Of a DNA stretch of 64,000 bases, positions 24,985 to 55,882 are shown piece by piece. The notes below the pieces were generated by a model, which saw only the letters and a list, made by a program, of their open reading frames with translations, did not search any database and was not told the DNA's origin. The DNA is from Defluviitalea saccharophila (GTDB lineage: Bacteria > Bacillota > Clostridia > Lachnospirales > Defluviitaleaceae), in contig NZ_CP121687.1 of assembly GCF_038396635.1 (NCBI RefSeq), positions 248,001 to 312,000 of the forward strand, in the 5' to 3' direction. A program made the position numbers and the translations under genes. Within the stretch, counting starts at the first letter, position 1. Each line of letters begins with the position of its first letter.

Positions 24985-25539
24985 ATGCGAAGGAAGTATG
25001 TTTCACATAAGAAATTGAAAAAAAATGAGCTTTATAATGAACAGGTCTTTATACCTGGAGCAGTGGCTCCTAAACTTAGTACTGAACTTCACGAGATCTT
25101 AGCAGAAGATGAGTTAAAACATGTTTTAAAAAAGCAAAAAGAAGAGAAGTCTAATAAAGTTGTATTATACAAATTAAAGCTTGTTGGAAATGTTTTTTTA
25201 ATTTTTATTGGATGTTTATTTCTTATGGGACAGTATGCTTCTATTACATTTAATCAGAAAGAAATTAAAAATTTGAAATCACAATTGAAAGGAATTCAAA
25301 ATACCAATGCAACTCTAAAATCAGAGATTGCAGAAAGTATTGATCTTACATTCATAAAGCAAAAGGCGATGGGAAAATTAGGCATGGTTGAACCGGCTCC
25401 ACACCAAATTGTATATATTGATATACCTAAGGTAAGCTATACGGCATATTATCAGCCTCCTATGAACGAACCAATTCAACCTGCTGAAGAAGATGTTGTA
25501 GCTGCTAGCTTCTTTGATTTTTTTAATTGGAAAGAGTGA
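24985..25539 (+). CDS. ftsL: FtsL-like cell division protein
   Basis: 184 residues from ATG 24985 (TTGGGGGAAT upstream; the frame is open further up into rsmH but without signals). Cytoplasmic charged N-terminus of about 65 residues, one transmembrane segment (about 68-88), then a coiled coil (EIKNLKSQLKGIQNTNATLK) and MGKLGMVEPAPHQIVYI, the usual FtsL/septum-initiator pattern. In the divisome FtsL pairs with DivIC and activates the septal synthase. Position between rsmH and a class B PBP confirms the call. The ~35-residue tail with several prolines is longer than usual. Confidence 0.85.
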   Translation: MRRKYVSHKKLKKNELYNEQVFIPGAVAPKLSTELHEILAEDELKHVLKKQKEEKSNKVVLYKLKLVGNVFLIFIGCLFLMGQYASITFNQKEIKNLKSQLKGIQNTNATLKSEIAESIDLTFIKQKAMGKLGMVEPAPHQIVYIDIPKVSYTAYYQPPMNEPIQPAEEDVVAASFFDFFNWKE

Positions 25540-25543
25540 AATA

Positions 25544-27511
25544 ATGAATGAATTAGTGGTTCAACAGGTCAAACGAAGATATTTTTTGGTGTTATTATTC
25601 TTCACATTTTCAATTCTTTTTTTAATGTATAGAATCGGATATATTAAATATGTGGATGGAGCAGAATATGAAGAAAAAGCCGTACTTCAAAGGCTTAACA
25701 CAGAGCAGATTATTTACCCCAATAGAGGTTCTATAGTAGATAGAAATCATCATGATTTGGCGCTAAGTACCATAGTATTTAATGTTATATTAGATCCTAA
25801 TGTTTTACTTGAACAAATTTCAGAAAATGAGAAAAACAGAACGATAGAAACCTTAAGCAAATTCTTGTCTATTTCGGATAAAGATCTAAATGATGCAATT
25901 TCAAAAAATCCTAATTCTAGATATGAAGTGGTAAAGAAACATATTAAAACGGATCTGGCACAGAAAATTAAAAATGAAGGTTTAAAGGGCGTATGGTTAG
26001 AAGAAGATTCGATTAGAAGTTATCTGAGAAATGAATTTGCGGCTCATATTATTGGATTTGTAAATAAGGATAACAAAGCACAATACGGCATAGAACAGCA
26101 TTACAATGAGTGGCTTACAGGCGTCCCCGGAAGGGTATTTCCAATGTTAAAAGAAGGAAAATATATTATGGAAGAAAATATTCCTGCAAAGCCTGGAAAC
26201 ACAATTGTGCTGACTATAGATGAGACCATTCAGCATTTTGCAGAATTGGCATTGCAGAATGCCGTAAAGGAACATAATCCCAAAAATGCTTCAGTAATTG
26301 CCATGGACCCCAATACCGGTGAAATACTGGCAATGGCTGCATATCCAACTTTTAATCCTAATCAATACAATGATTTAAGTGAATTTATTGATAAGAATAT
26401 ATGGAATAGTTTATCCAATGAAAAAAAAGTAGAAAAACTGAATTCTGTGTGGAAAAATTACAATGTCAGCAATACATATGAACCTGGTTCTACATTTAAA
26501 CCACTTTTAGTAGCGGCAGCTTTAGAGGAAAATGTTATTTCTTTAGAAGATCACTTCTACTGTGGAGGGCATAAAAGTGTCTATGGTCAAGTGATCAAAT
26601 GTTGGAAAACCAGTGGACATGGGGATCAGACTATAGAAGAGGCTTTAGCTAATTCTTGTAATGTTGCCATGATGGATATTGTAGAAAAAATGGGACCTCA
26701 AGTGTTCTACCAATATCAAAAATTATTTGGTTTTGGAGAAGCAACAGGTATAGACCTTCCGGGAGAAGCAGAAGGTATTCTTCACAGATTAGAGAATTTA
26801 AATCCGGTGGAATTAGCTACTAGTTCTTTCGGACAATCCTTTAACGTTACACCACTGCAGATTTTAACAGGATTTGCTTCTGTTATAAATGGTGGAAATT
26901 TAATGAAACCTTATATTGTAAAGCAAATCGTTTCTCAAGATGGAAATGAAATCAAAGAGGTTACCCCCATTGTACGAAGAAAAGTGATTTCAAAAGAAAG
27001 CTCACAGATCGTGAGAAATCAGTTGGAGTCTGTTGTAAGAGATGGTACAGGAAAAAAGGCAAAGGTTGAAGGTTATAGAATTGGCGGGAAGACAGGAACA
27101 GCAGAAAAGTTGCCTAGAGGAGAAGGAAAATATGCTCTTTCCTTTATCGGTTTTGCTCCTGTAGAAAATCCTAAAATTATCGTACTTGTACTTTTAGATG
27201 AGACGGAATACTATTCTGAAGGCAGTGGTGCTGCAGCCCCTGTAGCCAAAGAATTATTTGAAAATATTCTTCCATATATAGGCGTAGAGCCTTCTGATAA
27301 GCAAGATGAAAACGAGAATTCGGATGTTGAGTTGCCGGATTACAAAGGCTTACAACTTTTAGAAGCAGATATGGACCTTACCATTAAAGGTCTGAACTAT
27401 GAGGTGATTGGTGCAGGAAATCTGATCATGGATCAATTTCCTAAGGCAGGTACAAAGGTATCTCACGATATGAAAATTAAATTATACGTTTCGGAAGAAC
27501 AGAATGAATAA
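25544..27511 (+). CDS. pbpB: Class B penicillin-binding protein (PbpB/FtsI) with PASTA domain
   Basis: Septal transpeptidase. 655 residues from ATG 25544; the ribosome site is weak (GAAAGAG inside the ftsL end), suggesting coupling to ftsL, whose stop is 4 bp before. Order: N-terminal membrane anchor, PBP dimerisation domain, transpeptidase domain with S316-T-F-K319, S371-C-N373 and K516-T-G, then one C-terminal PASTA-like domain (about 595-655, LPDYKGLQLLEA). First of two tandem PBPs, as in B. subtilis (pbpB then spoVD), which supports the vegetative septal role. Confidence 0.9.
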   Translation: MNELVVQQVKRRYFLVLLFFTFSILFLMYRIGYIKYVDGAEYEEKAVLQRLNTEQIIYPNRGSIVDRNHHDLALSTIVFNVILDPNVLLEQISENEKNRTIETLSKFLSISDKDLNDAISKNPNSRYEVVKKHIKTDLAQKIKNEGLKGVWLEEDSIRSYLRNEFAAHIIGFVNKDNKAQYGIEQHYNEWLTGVPGRVFPMLKEGKYIMEENIPAKPGNTIVLTIDETIQHFAELALQNAVKEHNPKNASVIAMDPNTGEILAMAAYPTFNPNQYNDLSEFIDKNIWNSLSNEKKVEKLNSVWKNYNVSNTYEPGSTFKPLLVAAALEENVISLEDHFYCGGHKSVYGQVIKCWKTSGHGDQTIEEALANSCNVAMMDIVEKMGPQVFYQYQKLFGFGEATGIDLPGEAEGILHRLENLNPVELATSSFGQSFNVTPLQILTGFASVINGGNLMKPYIVKQIVSQDGNEIKEVTPIVRRKVISKESSQIVRNQLESVVRDGTGKKAKVEGYRIGGKTGTAEKLPRGEGKYALSFIGFAPVENPKIIVLVLLDETEYYSEGSGAAAPVAKELFENILPYIGVEPSDKQDENENSDVELPDYKGLQLLEADMDLTIKGLNYEVIGAGNLIMDQFPKAGTKVSHDMKIKLYVSEEQNE

Positions 27512-27513
27512 TA

Positions 27514-27564
27514 CCCCCATTATTGCAATAGAATGATACTAAACAGTTTACGCAATAATGGGGG
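27514..27564 (+). promoter_or_regulatory. Hairpin sequestering the spoVD ribosome-binding site
   Basis: CCCCCATTATTGC (27514-27526) and GCAATAATGGGGG (27552-27564) are a perfect 13-bp inverted repeat with a 25-nt loop, which itself holds TAAAC-A-GTTTA. The GGGGG of the right arm is the only Shine-Dalgarno sequence for the ATG at 27571. The left arm starts 2 nt after the pbpB stop. No T-run follows, so it is not a terminator. Confidence 0.75.
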
Positions 27565-27570
27565 AATAAT

Positions 27571-29520
27571 ATGGATAAACCTACTGTAAAGATAAAAAGA
27601 AAACTATTATTTTTTTTGGTTGTATTTACAATAGGTATTGTCGGTTTGATGTTTAGAATTGCGTATTTACAAATTGCTCAGGGGGACTTTTTACAAGAAT
27701 TGGCTTATGAACAGCATACAAGAGATCGTCTCATATCTCCTCAAAGAGGGACGATTTATGATAGAAATGGAGTAGCATTGGCGAAAAGTGCGACAGTCAC
27801 AACAATTGGCGTTATTCATGCGCAAATTGAAGATGCGGAGCAGGTTGCACGAGTCCTTTCTGAGAAATTAAATTTAGACTATGAAACGGTAAAAAAGAAA
27901 GTAGACAAGGTTGTGGCCCTAGAAAGGATTCAGTCAAAGGTGGATAAGGAAGTAGCTGATGAAATACGTAAAATGAATCTTCCAGGGGTAAAAATAGATG
28001 AAGATTCAAAAAGGTATTATCCATATAGTAATTTAGCGAGTCATGTCATTGGATTTGTAGGTAAAGACAATCAGGGCATTATTGGTCTGGAAGTAAAATA
28101 TGATGAGTACTTGAGGGGAACTCCTGGGAAAATTTTAACGGAAACTGACGGCAAAGGCAGAAAACTAAAAAATAGCCCGGAAAGAAGAATAGAACCTATT
28201 CCGGGAAATCATTTAGTAACAACCATTGATTTAACCATTCAGCAATACGCGGAACAAGCCTTAGATAAAGCCATTAAAGCAAAAGATGCAAAGCGTGGCA
28301 GTATTATCGTAATGAATCCTCAGACTGGCGAAATATATGCTATGGCAAATAAGCCTGATTACGACTTGAATCAACCCTTTAAAATCAATAATCCCGAGTT
28401 AGAACAAATATGGAGTACACTGAATACAGAAGAACAATATAAAGAACTCAATAAAATGTGGAGAAATTTTGCTATTAATGATACATATGAACCCGGTTCG
28501 ACATTTAAAATCATGACTTCGGCAATGGGATTAGAAGAAATGGTTGTTAATGCGAATTCGCCATTTAACTGTAATGGATATCATACCGTTGCAGGAAGAA
28601 TGATCAAATGTTGGAGATATCCTAGAGCCCATGGTTCTCAAACTTTTACTCAAGGAGTTCAAAACTCTTGCAATCCTGTATTTATGCAAGTCGCTGAACG
28701 CATAGGGGTAAAAAAGTTTTATCAATACATGAAGTTATTTGGATTTAGTGAAAAGACAGGAATCGATGTTCCAGGAGAAGCTGTAGGAATTATGCACAAC
28801 CTAAAAGACATTGGCCCTGTAGAATTGGCTACCATGTCATTTGGTCAGTCCTTTCAAATTACACCGCTGCAGCTTCTTAGAGCAGCAGCTGCAGTAGTAA
28901 ACGGTGGAACTTTAATCACACCTCATTTTGGATCTAAAGTTATTAACGATGAGGGAGAAGTAGTCAAGGAATTTGAATATAAAGATGGAAAGCAAATTAT
29001 ATCTCAAGAAACCTCTGATACTATGAAAAAAATATTAGAAAGTGTTGTGGCACAAGGAACTGGAAATAAAGCATATATTCCAGGATATAGGATTGGAGGA
29101 AAGACTGCTACATCAGAAAAACTTCCCAGAAGCGCTAAAAAATATATAGCGTCTTTTTTGGCTTTTGCCCCTTCAGAGAATCCACAGGTAATGGCTTTAG
29201 TCATTATCGATGAGCCGCAAGGCATTTATTACGGAGGAACTGTAGCAGGGCCGGTTATGAAAGAGATTCTTGACAATATTCTTCCATATTTAAAGATTGA
29301 GCCTAAATATACAGAAGTAGAATTAAAAATGGATGAAGTTGAAAAAGTTCGTGTGCCAAATTTAATCAGTAAAAACACTGATGAAGCTATTAAAGAGCTA
29401 AAAAAGATCAATTTAGGCTTTGAATTGATTGGAAATGGGAAAACTGTAAAAGATCAATTTCCGCTTTCTGGTGAAGAAGTCAATCCTAAATCTAAAGTAA
29501 TCCTATATACAAATCCATGA
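27571..29520 (+). CDS. spoVD: Class B penicillin-binding protein, SpoVD-like, with PASTA domain
   Basis: 649 residues, same architecture as the preceding PBP: membrane anchor (about 12-32), dimerisation domain with RGTIYDRNG, transpeptidase with S310-T-F-K313 and S366-C-N368, and one C-terminal PASTA domain (VRVPNLISKNTDEA...). The third motif reads K511-T-A-T instead of KTGT. In B. subtilis SpoVD builds the spore cortex and works with SpoVE; here the order PBP-PBP-murE and the PASTA domain support that assignment, though it could be a second divisomal PBP. Its ribosome site lies in a strong hairpin. Confidence 0.8.
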   Translation: MDKPTVKIKRKLLFFLVVFTIGIVGLMFRIAYLQIAQGDFLQELAYEQHTRDRLISPQRGTIYDRNGVALAKSATVTTIGVIHAQIEDAEQVARVLSEKLNLDYETVKKKVDKVVALERIQSKVDKEVADEIRKMNLPGVKIDEDSKRYYPYSNLASHVIGFVGKDNQGIIGLEVKYDEYLRGTPGKILTETDGKGRKLKNSPERRIEPIPGNHLVTTIDLTIQQYAEQALDKAIKAKDAKRGSIIVMNPQTGEIYAMANKPDYDLNQPFKINNPELEQIWSTLNTEEQYKELNKMWRNFAINDTYEPGSTFKIMTSAMGLEEMVVNANSPFNCNGYHTVAGRMIKCWRYPRAHGSQTFTQGVQNSCNPVFMQVAERIGVKKFYQYMKLFGFSEKTGIDVPGEAVGIMHNLKDIGPVELATMSFGQSFQITPLQLLRAAAAVVNGGTLITPHFGSKVINDEGEVVKEFEYKDGKQIISQETSDTMKKILESVVAQGTGNKAYIPGYRIGGKTATSEKLPRSAKKYIASFLAFAPSENPQVMALVIIDEPQGIYYGGTVAGPVMKEILDNILPYLKIEPKYTEVELKMDEVEKVRVPNLISKNTDEAIKELKKINLGFELIGNGKTVKDQFPLSGEEVNPKSKVILYTNP

Positions 29521-39639: not shown

Positions 39640-40569
39640 ATGGAACAACCATTTCAAATAGAAATATACGCGGACATTGTGTTTTTTCTTAATTTTGTGA
39701 TGGACTATTTTATTTTATGGATCGTAAGTAAAATAATTAAGAAAAATGTTTCCTCAAAAAGACTTTTTTTAGGAGCATTTCTAGGAGCCCTGCTTTATTG
39801 CCTGATGATTTTTATTCCTATATTTAGAACGACCTATAATTTAATAGGTATAATTGGACTGCCGATGATTCCCCTAATGATTACCTATAGGCCTAATTCT
39901 TTTAAAAACCTGATTAAGGTGTTTATATTGTTTCATGGAACTGCTTTTGCTCTTGGAGGAGCTGGGATCGCGTTATTCTATTATTTAAATATCGGAAAAG
40001 TTATTCAGGATGCACTTCAGTTTAAAATAGAAAATTTCCCTATAGTATTATTATTCGTTTCTAGCGTTTTATCATATTTTTTTATAAAAACAATATGGTC
40101 TTGGATTCGCAAATATACTACAAAAGAAGGTAATTTATATCATATTAAGATTTACTTTGAGGGACAGCAGATTGATGCCAGTGCCCTTCTGGATACGGGA
40201 AATTCATTATATGATCCTTTTAGTCAAAGTCCTGTTATTGTTGTAGAATTTTCTTCAGTGAAAGCATTTTTACCCGAAAGCATTCAAAAATTATTTTATG
40301 ATAATAAAGAGAACGATCTAAATTTACTTACACAGTCAATTACACAAACTCCTATCAGAGCCAAGATAAGAATGATTCCTTTTTCCAGTTTAGGCATGCC
40401 GAATGGTATGCTTGTCGGTTTTAGACCGGATCAAGTTGAAGTTATAGAACAAGACAATACTTCTACAATATTAAAAGATGTGGTTATAGGAATATATAAT
40501 CAAAGACTTTCAAAAGACAATAGGTATCAAGCCTTGCTTCATCCAGACATATTTCATAACATTGCATAA
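39640..40569 (+). CDS. spoIIGA: Sigma-E processing aspartic protease
   Basis: Mother-cell membrane protease that cleaves pro-sigma-E after engulfment signalling by SpoIIR. 309 residues: five membrane segments in the first half, then a cytoplasmic domain with the aspartic-protease motif DTGNSLYDP (Asp185). The sigE gene follows 24 bp later, the standard spoIIG operon. A TATAAT at 39567 with TTTACA 21 bp upstream recalls the oddly long spacing of the Spo0A-activated B. subtilis promoter, but no clear 0A box was seen. Confidence 0.95.
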   Translation: MEQPFQIEIYADIVFFLNFVMDYFILWIVSKIIKKNVSSKRLFLGAFLGALLYCLMIFIPIFRTTYNLIGIIGLPMIPLMITYRPNSFKNLIKVFILFHGTAFALGGAGIALFYYLNIGKVIQDALQFKIENFPIVLLFVSSVLSYFFIKTIWSWIRKYTTKEGNLYHIKIYFEGQQIDASALLDTGNSLYDPFSQSPVIVVEFSSVKAFLPESIQKLFYDNKENDLNLLTQSITQTPIRAKIRMIPFSSLGMPNGMLVGFRPDQVEVIEQDNTSTILKDVVIGIYNQRLSKDNRYQALLHPDIFHNIA

Positions 40570-40593
40570 ATGTAATTGATAGGGGGAGATAAC

Positions 40594-41331
40594 GTGAAAG
40601 TAATTTATGAACTTAAACTCAAGTTTTGTTTTTATTGGAATAAATTATTAAGGTTGCTTCATCTAAAAGATGAAGATTCAGTTTACTATATCGGAGGAAG
40701 CGAAATCTTACCGCCACCTTTGAATAAAGAAGAAGAAGACTCTCTCATTAACCAATTGGGAGGAGAACAGGACTTATACGTGAAATCTGTTTTAATTGAA
40801 AGAAATCTAAGACTAGTTGTATACATAGCCAGAAAGTTTGAAAATACTGGGATAGGTGTAGAAGACCTTATATCTATTGGAACTATAGGACTTATAAAAG
40901 CGATTAATACTTTTAAACCTGATAAAAAAATTAAATTAGCAACTTATGCTTCCCGCTGTATTGAAAATGAAATTCTTATGTATCTACGAAGAACGAATAA
41001 ATTAAAGACGGAGATTTCTATAGATGAACCACTTAATGTAGACTGGGATGGGAATGAATTGTTATTATCGGATATCTTAGGAACAGATCCTGATATCATC
41101 TATAGAAGCATTGAAGATGAAGTTGATCGTGACTTATTAAGTAAAGCAATGGATAAGCTGTCCAATCGTGAAAAGGAGATTGTTGAGCTTAGATTCGGAC
41201 TTACTGCAGAAGGAAAAGAAAAAACACAAAAAGAAGTTGCTGATTTACTGGGCATTTCACAGTCCTATATATCAAGATTGGAGAAAAAAATCATATATAG
41301 ACTAAGAAAGGAAATAAATAGAATGCATTAA
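40594..41331 (+). CDS. sigE: Sporulation sigma factor, pro-sigma-E
   Basis: Mother-cell sigma factor, 245 residues from GTG 40594 (AGGGGGAG at 5 nt). The N-terminus is the amphipathic pro-sequence, followed by [14 protein letters not shown], almost identical to the B. subtilis pro-sigma-E junction. Regions 2 and 4 are intact ([35 protein letters not shown]). Processed by the neighbouring SpoIIGA. Confidence 0.97.
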
Positions 41332-41416
41332 GCCAAATTCAACCAAATGTATAATTTAGTTCTCTCTGGCAATCATTTTTAGTAGGTAGAATTTTAACTA
41401 TACTGGAGGGAACGGT

Positions 41417-54868: not shown

Positions 54869-55882
54869 ATGGCAGTTGTGAGGGAGGAATATTCAGGTAA
54901 GGAAAAAGCCGCTATGCTGCTTATTGCGTTAGGACCTGAAAAATCTGCACAAATATTTAAGCATCTTAAAGAAGAAGAAATAGAGCAACTGACTTTAGAA
55001 ATCGCTAATATTCGAACAGTGTCTTCGCAAATGAAGGAAAAGGTACTGGAAGAATTCTATCAAATCTGTTTAGCACAGCAGTACATTGCTGAAGGGGGAA
55101 TTACCTATGCTAAACAAATCTTAGAAAAAGCTTTGGGAAGCGAAAAAGCTTTAGAAGTTCTAAACAAGCTTACTGTTTCTCTACAAGTCAGACCATTCGA
55201 CTTTGTTCGGAAGACAGATGCTTCACAGTTATTGAACTTTATTCAAAATGAACATCCTCAGGCGATTGCATTAATCCTTGCTTATTTAAGACCAAGTCAG
55301 GCGGCTACCGTACTTGCATCTCTTCCTCAAGAGAAGCAAGCGGATGTAGCAAGAAGAATTGCACTTATGGACAGGACTTCACCTGATATTATAAAAGAAG
55401 TTGAAAGAGTATTAGAGAAAAAACTATCTTCATTAGTAACAGAAGATTACACTGCAGTTGGTGGAGTAGATGCAATAGTAGAGATTATCAACTCTGTTGA
55501 TAGAGGTACTGAAAAGCATATCATGGAAACTCTTGAAGTTGAAGATACCGAACTGGCAGAAGAAATTAAGAAGAAAATGTTTGTATTTGAAGATATTATT
55601 ACCTTGGACAACAGATCCATTCAAAGAATTCTTAGAGAAGTTGATAATAACGACTTAGCAATAGCTTTAAAAGGCTCTGGAGAAGAAGTGCAAAATGTAA
55701 TTTTTGCTAACTTATCCAAACGACTTGCTACAATGATCAAAGAAGATATGGAATATATGGGTCCTGTTCGCTTAAGAGATGTAGAAGATTCTCAACAAAA
55801 AATTGTTAATATCATTAGAAAACTAGAAGATGTTGGAGAAATCGTTATTTCCAGAGGTGGAGGTGACGAAATAATTGTCTAA
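54869..55882 (+). CDS. fliG: Flagellar motor switch protein FliG
   Basis: Rotor protein transmitting torque. 337 residues, three-domain layout; conserved FIQNEHPQAIALILAYLRP in the middle domain, and the C-terminal domain with the charged helix (DNRSIQRILREVDNNDLAIALKG in part) that meets MotA. Six bp after fliF. Confidence 0.98.
   Translation: MAVVREEYSGKEKAAMLLIALGPEKSAQIFKHLKEEEIEQLTLEIANIRTVSSQMKEKVLEEFYQICLAQQYIAEGGITYAKQILEKALGSEKALEVLNKLTVSLQVRPFDFVRKTDASQLLNFIQNEHPQAIALILAYLRPSQAATVLASLPQEKQADVARRIALMDRTSPDIIKEVERVLEKKLSSLVTEDYTAVGGVDAIVEIINSVDRGTEKHIMETLEVEDTELAEEIKKKMFVFEDIITLDNRSIQRILREVDNNDLAIALKGSGEEVQNVIFANLSKRLATMIKEDMEYMGPVRLRDVEDSQQKIVNIIRKLEDVGEIVISRGGGDEIIV

Follow-up and report, generated by a model that had tools for sequence, protein, structure and literature searches.

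A predicted read-through lock on spoVD in Defluviitalea saccharophila: a ribosome-site hairpin enclosing a putative sigma-E-type promoter

How can the gene for a spore-cortex penicillin-binding protein (PBP) stand directly behind a division gene without being made during growth? The question is raised by a 64,000-nucleotide stretch of the Defluviitalea saccharophila genome (contig NZ_CP121687.1, positions 248,001 to 312,000), hereafter the window, in which spoVD (27571-29520, plus strand) begins 59 nucleotides (nt) past the end of pbpB (25544-27511, same strand), the gene of a class B PBP that is of the division type by its position. The junction holds a strong hairpin. An earlier interpretation, which we call the sequence-only reading, had described a perfect 13-bp stem burying the spoVD Shine-Dalgarno, had placed its left arm 2 nt past the pbpB stop, and had proposed that spoVD is translated in step with pbpB or is freed by another factor. 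Our analysis points to such a factor: with a probability that we put near 0.8, the hairpin is a read-through lock that is bypassed by a sporulation promoter lying inside it.

The two structural statements are borne out by the coordinates, the predicted fold, and the cost of opening the site. The pbpB stop codon, TAA, occupies 27509-27511. The left arm, the anti-Shine-Dalgarno sequence CCCCCATTATTGC, runs from 27514 to 27526 on the plus strand and pairs perfectly over all 13 bp with the right arm, GCAATAATGGGGG (27552-27564, plus strand). The right arm includes the Shine-Dalgarno GGGGG (27560-27564), 6 nt 5′ of the spoVD ATG at 27571. The minimum free energy (MFE) predicted for 27480-27600 is −27.7 kcal/mol (z −4.9); shuffled versions averaged −13.4, and none of 200 was equally stable. 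In such a long RNA, freeing the spoVD ribosome site is predicted to cost 16.6 kcal/mol (z 5.7, 30 shuffles; z 4.6 in a second run on the same site). This burial ranks first among the 36 plus-strand genes tested, which lie between 21606 and 61895; one other exceeded a z of 3. Silence of spoVD on vegetative pbpB transcripts is supported as a predicted effect of the buried site. The exact arm sequence has two occurrences in the genome, both in the spoVD hairpin, and a dispersed repeat as the origin of the arm is ruled out because the sequence is found nowhere else. A scan of the hairpin against Rfam gave no match above the gathering score, with two microRNA matches falling far below it (E 0.39 and 0.88). 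Elsewhere in the window, the gene at 55875, read as belonging to a flagellar cluster, has a local hairpin on its ribosome site (partner at −30 to −22, z 3.1); it is short-range and hence no read-through lock.

The sequence-only reading overlooked a promoter motif of the sigma-E type inside this hairpin. Its −35 element, GAATAAT (27506-27512, plus strand), overlaps the pbpB stop; its −10 element, AATAGAAT (27527-27534, plus strand), falls in the hairpin loop; and the left arm lies inside the 14-nt gap between the two, filling most of this spacer (27513-27526). Judging from the usual spacing of −10 to +1, transcription would start at 27541, within about 2 nt, on the plus strand. Both elements belong to a motif found de novo in 101 spoVD upstream regions, gcATAan-N14-AATAaAAT, and this search arrived at an equal likelihood from the best of 25 random starts and from the sigma-E consensus. 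The matrix learned from these loci, which replaced a weak fixed-consensus sigma-E score, beat shuffled sequences at 16 of 23 spoIVA loci and 15 of 21 spoIIID loci, with at most 2 of 50 shuffles scoring as high. In Bacillus subtilis both genes are sigma-E controlled, and spoVD is listed among the sigma-E genes, according to PMC517825. By the motif shared with other sigma-E-type genes, together with gene content, the spoVD promoter is predicted to be of the sigma-E type. The window also includes spoIIGA and sigE (39640-41331, plus strand), both above curated family cutoffs, so the sigma factor that would read this promoter is present in the genome, as is the protease that processes it.

Because the left arm is encoded in the promoter spacer, an RNA begun near 27541 would lack it. 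Such an RNA is predicted to fold at −3.8 kcal/mol rather than the −27.7 of the long RNA, and opening the spoVD Shine-Dalgarno in it would cost 2.1 kcal/mol rather than 16.6. In its MFE structure three of the five Shine-Dalgarno Gs are weakly paired, and in its centroid structure none is. We propose the following sequence of events. During growth, division-operon transcripts that run past pbpB would carry the left arm, which would pair with the spoVD Shine-Dalgarno and keep spoVD untranslated. Once sigma-E becomes active in the mother cell, transcription would begin in the hairpin loop, and the resulting RNA, free of the left arm, could be translated.

Relatives show where this arrangement occurs. 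From 110 spoVD loci (L009 to L118, the window's own being L009), removal of five duplicates and of two loci without upstream sequence (L086 and L110) gave a set of 103, and the motif search used all of these but L054 and L088. Measured against shuffled upstream sequence, burial of the ribosome site exceeded a z of 3 in 40 of the 79 loci with pbpB upstream in tandem, in none of the 19 without a recognised pbpB upstream, in 1 of 5 with pbpB at least 331 nt upstream, and in 1 of 57 from other lineages. The tandem class consists of 78 loci found by tblastn and L035, added by hand, where a co-directional gene 70 nt upstream was not recognised as a PBP by tblastn. One of the 19, L088, carries a strong lock, but the sequence retrieved for it breaks off within the upstream gene. 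The median difference in opening cost between long and short RNA is 7.1 kcal/mol in 73 tandem loci and 0.4 in 24 others; these 73 score above 6 for the promoter and directly follow a co-directional gene, six tandem loci scoring 6 or less being excluded. The lock accompanies the tandem pbpB-spoVD layout, though some tandem loci lack it. Among loci at the class and phylum level, tblastn placed a pbpB-like gene upstream in 2 of 59 (L151 and L156), both in what we label the G191 class; L150, L206, L226, and L227, which have no usable start, were left out. The G191 class (L151, L156, and L179 to L225) shows another promoter-like motif before spoVD, tGTTCTA-N15-GAATAggg, whose −35 part is unlike the usual sigma-E element. 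In its 15 loci that cost 10 kcal/mol or more to open and have a motif score above 6, the arm precedes the predicted start in 14 and falls within the spacer in 7.

The arm layout recurs in relatives whose sequences differ, and the pairing follows the partner. Across the 73 loci, spacers pair with their own ribosome sites at a mean of −16.1 kcal/mol, against −8.6 when mismatched; none of 2,000 permutations came as low, the minimum being −9.8. In 39 mutually dissimilar representatives the values are −15.3 and −8.5 kcal/mol (0 of 20,000 permutations; minimum −10.7), and in 15 of these 39 the locus's own spacer is the single best partner of its ribosome site. A control stretch upstream gave −8.0 against −7.3 kcal/mol mismatched (218 of 5,000 permutations). 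Within the window's own family, 90% of cells are paired and one pair has changed on both sides. The check suggested earlier, that the arms stay complementary as their sequences change, thus has a positive outcome in many relatives, by the comparison of own with mismatched pairing.

Several results weigh against the proposed lock. Scored with the B. subtilis sigma-E consensus, the promoter reached p ≤ 0.05 in only 18 of 103 loci, and the window's p is 0.22. Covariation in the window's own family of seven rows is weak, with 39 of 500 shuffles reaching its score. A control stretch downstream of the −10 element also pairs better with its own site than with mismatched ones (−8.7 against −7.1 kcal/mol, none of 5,000 permutations as low), a slight excess that arises partly because this stretch overlaps the ribosome site. 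The match with gene order is imperfect in both directions: of the 73 tandem loci that bear the promoter, 25 show a difference of no more than 4 kcal/mol between long and short RNA, and a group that includes several Herbinix metagenome-assembled genomes (MAGs) has the promoter mostly without a strong lock. In the other direction, a difference above 4 kcal/mol is seen at 7 of the 24 loci that have no pbpB close upstream, and 3 of the 19 without a recognised pbpB exceed a z of 2. In the G191 class, where 9 of 48 loci exceed a z of 3, the median z is only 0.6. Finally, PMC1808063 classes pbpB-spoVD as a non-operon pair in B. subtilis, and for this reason read-through must be shown, not assumed. 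The motif has limits of its own as well. A strict promoter pattern matched seven places in the 3.0-Mb genome, the spoVD site among them, against four for a reversed control; of the other six, three lie beneath long open frames and two are followed by no gene start. Given these counts and the poor placement of the other six, the motif alone is no regulon finder.

Does the arm belong to the promoter or to the pbpB stop? If, as proposed earlier, the ribosome that finishes pbpB sits on the left arm and so unfolds the hairpin, coupling spoVD translation to that of pbpB, the arm should keep to the stop. In this genome it starts 2 nt past it, near enough for transient coupling, and the usual footprint of a stopped ribosome would reach about 27521, covering the G-C part of the arm, which we count in favor of coupling. 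The arm likewise lies within 10 nt of the pbpB stop in 12 of 47 locked loci. Over these 47, which include the window (L035, with no measured distance, stands outside the set), the stop-to-arm distance nevertheless ranges from −8 to +118 nt with a standard deviation of 22, three times the standard deviation of 7 for the distance from arm to −10 element, and strong locks also occur with pbpB 338 nt (L060) and 518 nt (L037) upstream. By contrast, the arm follows the promoter: in 46 of the 48 locked loci (opening cost at least 8 kcal/mol) whose promoter score is 6 or more, the stretch that pairs with the Shine-Dalgarno precedes the predicted start, and in 41 it falls within the −35/−10 spacer. Production of a sporulation PBP in step with a division PBP would also make little sense. 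Mainly because the arm tracks the −10 element better than the pbpB stop, we prefer the read-through lock and consider coupling unlikely. As a conserved role, the coupling half of the earlier proposal is not supported, since the distance to the stop drifts while that to the promoter barely does; for its other half, release by another factor, the factor is most likely the promoter inside the hairpin.

Two further explanations take the hairpin to be something other than a lock on translation. A stable, G-C-ended stem directly past a stop codon could be an attenuator or a terminator closing the pbpB operon. The stem has no U tract behind it, a scan of 27350-27750 found no terminator-like site, the arm holds the Shine-Dalgarno of the next gene, and same-strand genes continue downstream; on the missing U tract and the empty scan we reject termination, and we give the whole explanation very little credence. 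The inverted repeat could instead act as DNA, as an operator for a dimeric regulator such as SpoIIID: it is a perfect dyad overlapping a promoter, and SpoIIID sites at the B. subtilis spoVD promoter are cited in PMC517825. Yet the 25-nt gap between the arms is long for an operator, and the repeat varies freely in sequence while its complementarity is kept, its content following the Shine-Dalgarno. Because the sequence changes and the pairing stays, an operator is highly improbable.

If the read-through lock operates at spoVD, does it extend to other sporulation genes? In this genome the predicted spoIIID lock is as strong as that of spoVD, and the one predicted for sigG is weak. The spoIIID gene (L309, on the minus strand near 1646612-1646848 of G000:C1) follows, after 74 nt, a gene labeled spoIIQ-like from its translation and gene order. 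Its promoter reads TCATAAA, then the spacer CCATCCCCCCTTAA, then CATATATA, with a matching GTTAAGGGGGG at the ribosome site; the anti-Shine-Dalgarno arm CCCCCCTTAA lies in this sigma-E-type spacer, and the opening cost is 19.6 kcal/mol. The counts for all of these other genes exclude truncated matches and short loci. Where a co-directional gene lies within 200 nt, 10 of 16 spoIIID loci have costs of at least 10 kcal/mol, against none of the other 6; with a close co-directional gene, the same threshold was reached at only 4 of 15 spoIVA loci, 1 of 8 spoIVB loci, and 1 of 12 spoIIIAA loci. For sigG, spoIIID, spoIVA, spoIVB, and spoIIIAA together, z exceeded 2 at 27 of the 67 loci that have a co-directional neighbor nearby and at 4 of the 42 that do not, a difference whose Fisher p of 0.0004 is indicative only, since neighbors were judged by open frames and the loci are related. 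Ribosome sites strongly buried behind close co-directional genes were seen at the spoIVA loci L265, L275, L277, and L286. At sigG in the window, the 8-bp arm GTTCTCTC (41359-41366) can pair with GAGGGAAC (41406-41413) at the ribosome site; the fold there is not significant (z −0.2), and the pairing is stronger in the relatives L232, L236, and L241. This arm lies within what we take, by eye and from the consensus, to be the spacer of a sigma-F/G-like promoter. Promoter-embedded anti-Shine-Dalgarno arms may be a general, unrecognised control of sporulation genes that lie behind genes of another compartment or stage, a suggestion we make tentatively and rate somewhat below even odds. With the lock in the promoter spacer, only correctly started RNA would be translated.

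The gene names deserve comment. The products of pbpB and spoVD are both class B PBPs carrying PASTA domains. The best family for the spoVD product is TIGR02214 (stage V sporulation protein D), at 654 bits; the pbpB product scores 582, and both fall under the curated cutoff of 688. The sigma-E-type promoter supports the name spoVD for the downstream gene. The pbpB frame, the proposed source of the read-through RNA, is listed from a TTG at 25514; its start at the ATG at 25544 was chosen from the translation. A murE-like gene and further genes follow spoVD on the same strand. Among the matches listed, the closest named relatives of the spoVD protein are two MAGs labeled Candidatus Epulonipiscium, at 83% and 81% identity.

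The arrangement may be relevant in several ways. If the lock works as proposed, it would account for a cortex PBP gene that stands in an essential growth operon and yet yields no protein in growing cells, with no need for a terminator, which would also cut off the genes downstream. The sequence rule that it supplies, an anti-Shine-Dalgarno arm within a promoter spacer, can serve to search the genome of any spore former. There is also a warning in it: when RNA sequencing of growing cells covers such genes, their proteins may still not be made.

In the open-licence literature searched we found no report of a lock on spoVD or spoIIID; older papers on spoVD and sigG lay outside that scope. The tandem layout itself is not universal, as spoVD of Clostridioides difficile follows a small gene; there it is listed among SigH genes. 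It is useful to compare the spoVD hairpin with known systems. For B. subtilis sigG (spoIIIG), PMC5942855 describes a leader hairpin of 20 or more bp that is proposed to keep read-through RNA from being translated; transcripts begun at the gene's own promoter cannot form it. There, too, a sporulation gene lies behind another operon, spoIIGA-sigE in place of pbpB. The spoVD case differs in gene, sigma factor, and compartment, in the position of the arm within the −35/−10 spacer (41 of 48 locked loci), and in the matching of arm to site across many species. A second, short sigG hairpin of Bacilli, described in the same paper, resembles that of spoVD as a helix that sits on the ribosome site of a sporulation gene and reduces its translation; at 5 bp, it forms in RNA from the gene's own promoter, whereas the spoVD hairpin is predicted not to. 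Another parallel comes from phage T4 gene e and I-TevI. As given in PMC3014915 and PMC2988022, the long early RNA hides the ribosome site, and the late promoter region encodes the 5′ strand of the helix, so that late RNA lacks it; for gene e, a 100-fold effect is stated. The long spoVD RNA is likewise predicted to hide its site, with the 5′ strand encoded in the promoter region. T4 concerns phage timing under a phage-encoded late sigma factor and has been tested experimentally, whereas spoVD concerns cellular development and is a prediction. Overall, the spoVD hairpin would work like T4 gene e, I-TevI, and B. subtilis sigG, following the same logic in a sporulation gene placed behind pbpB.

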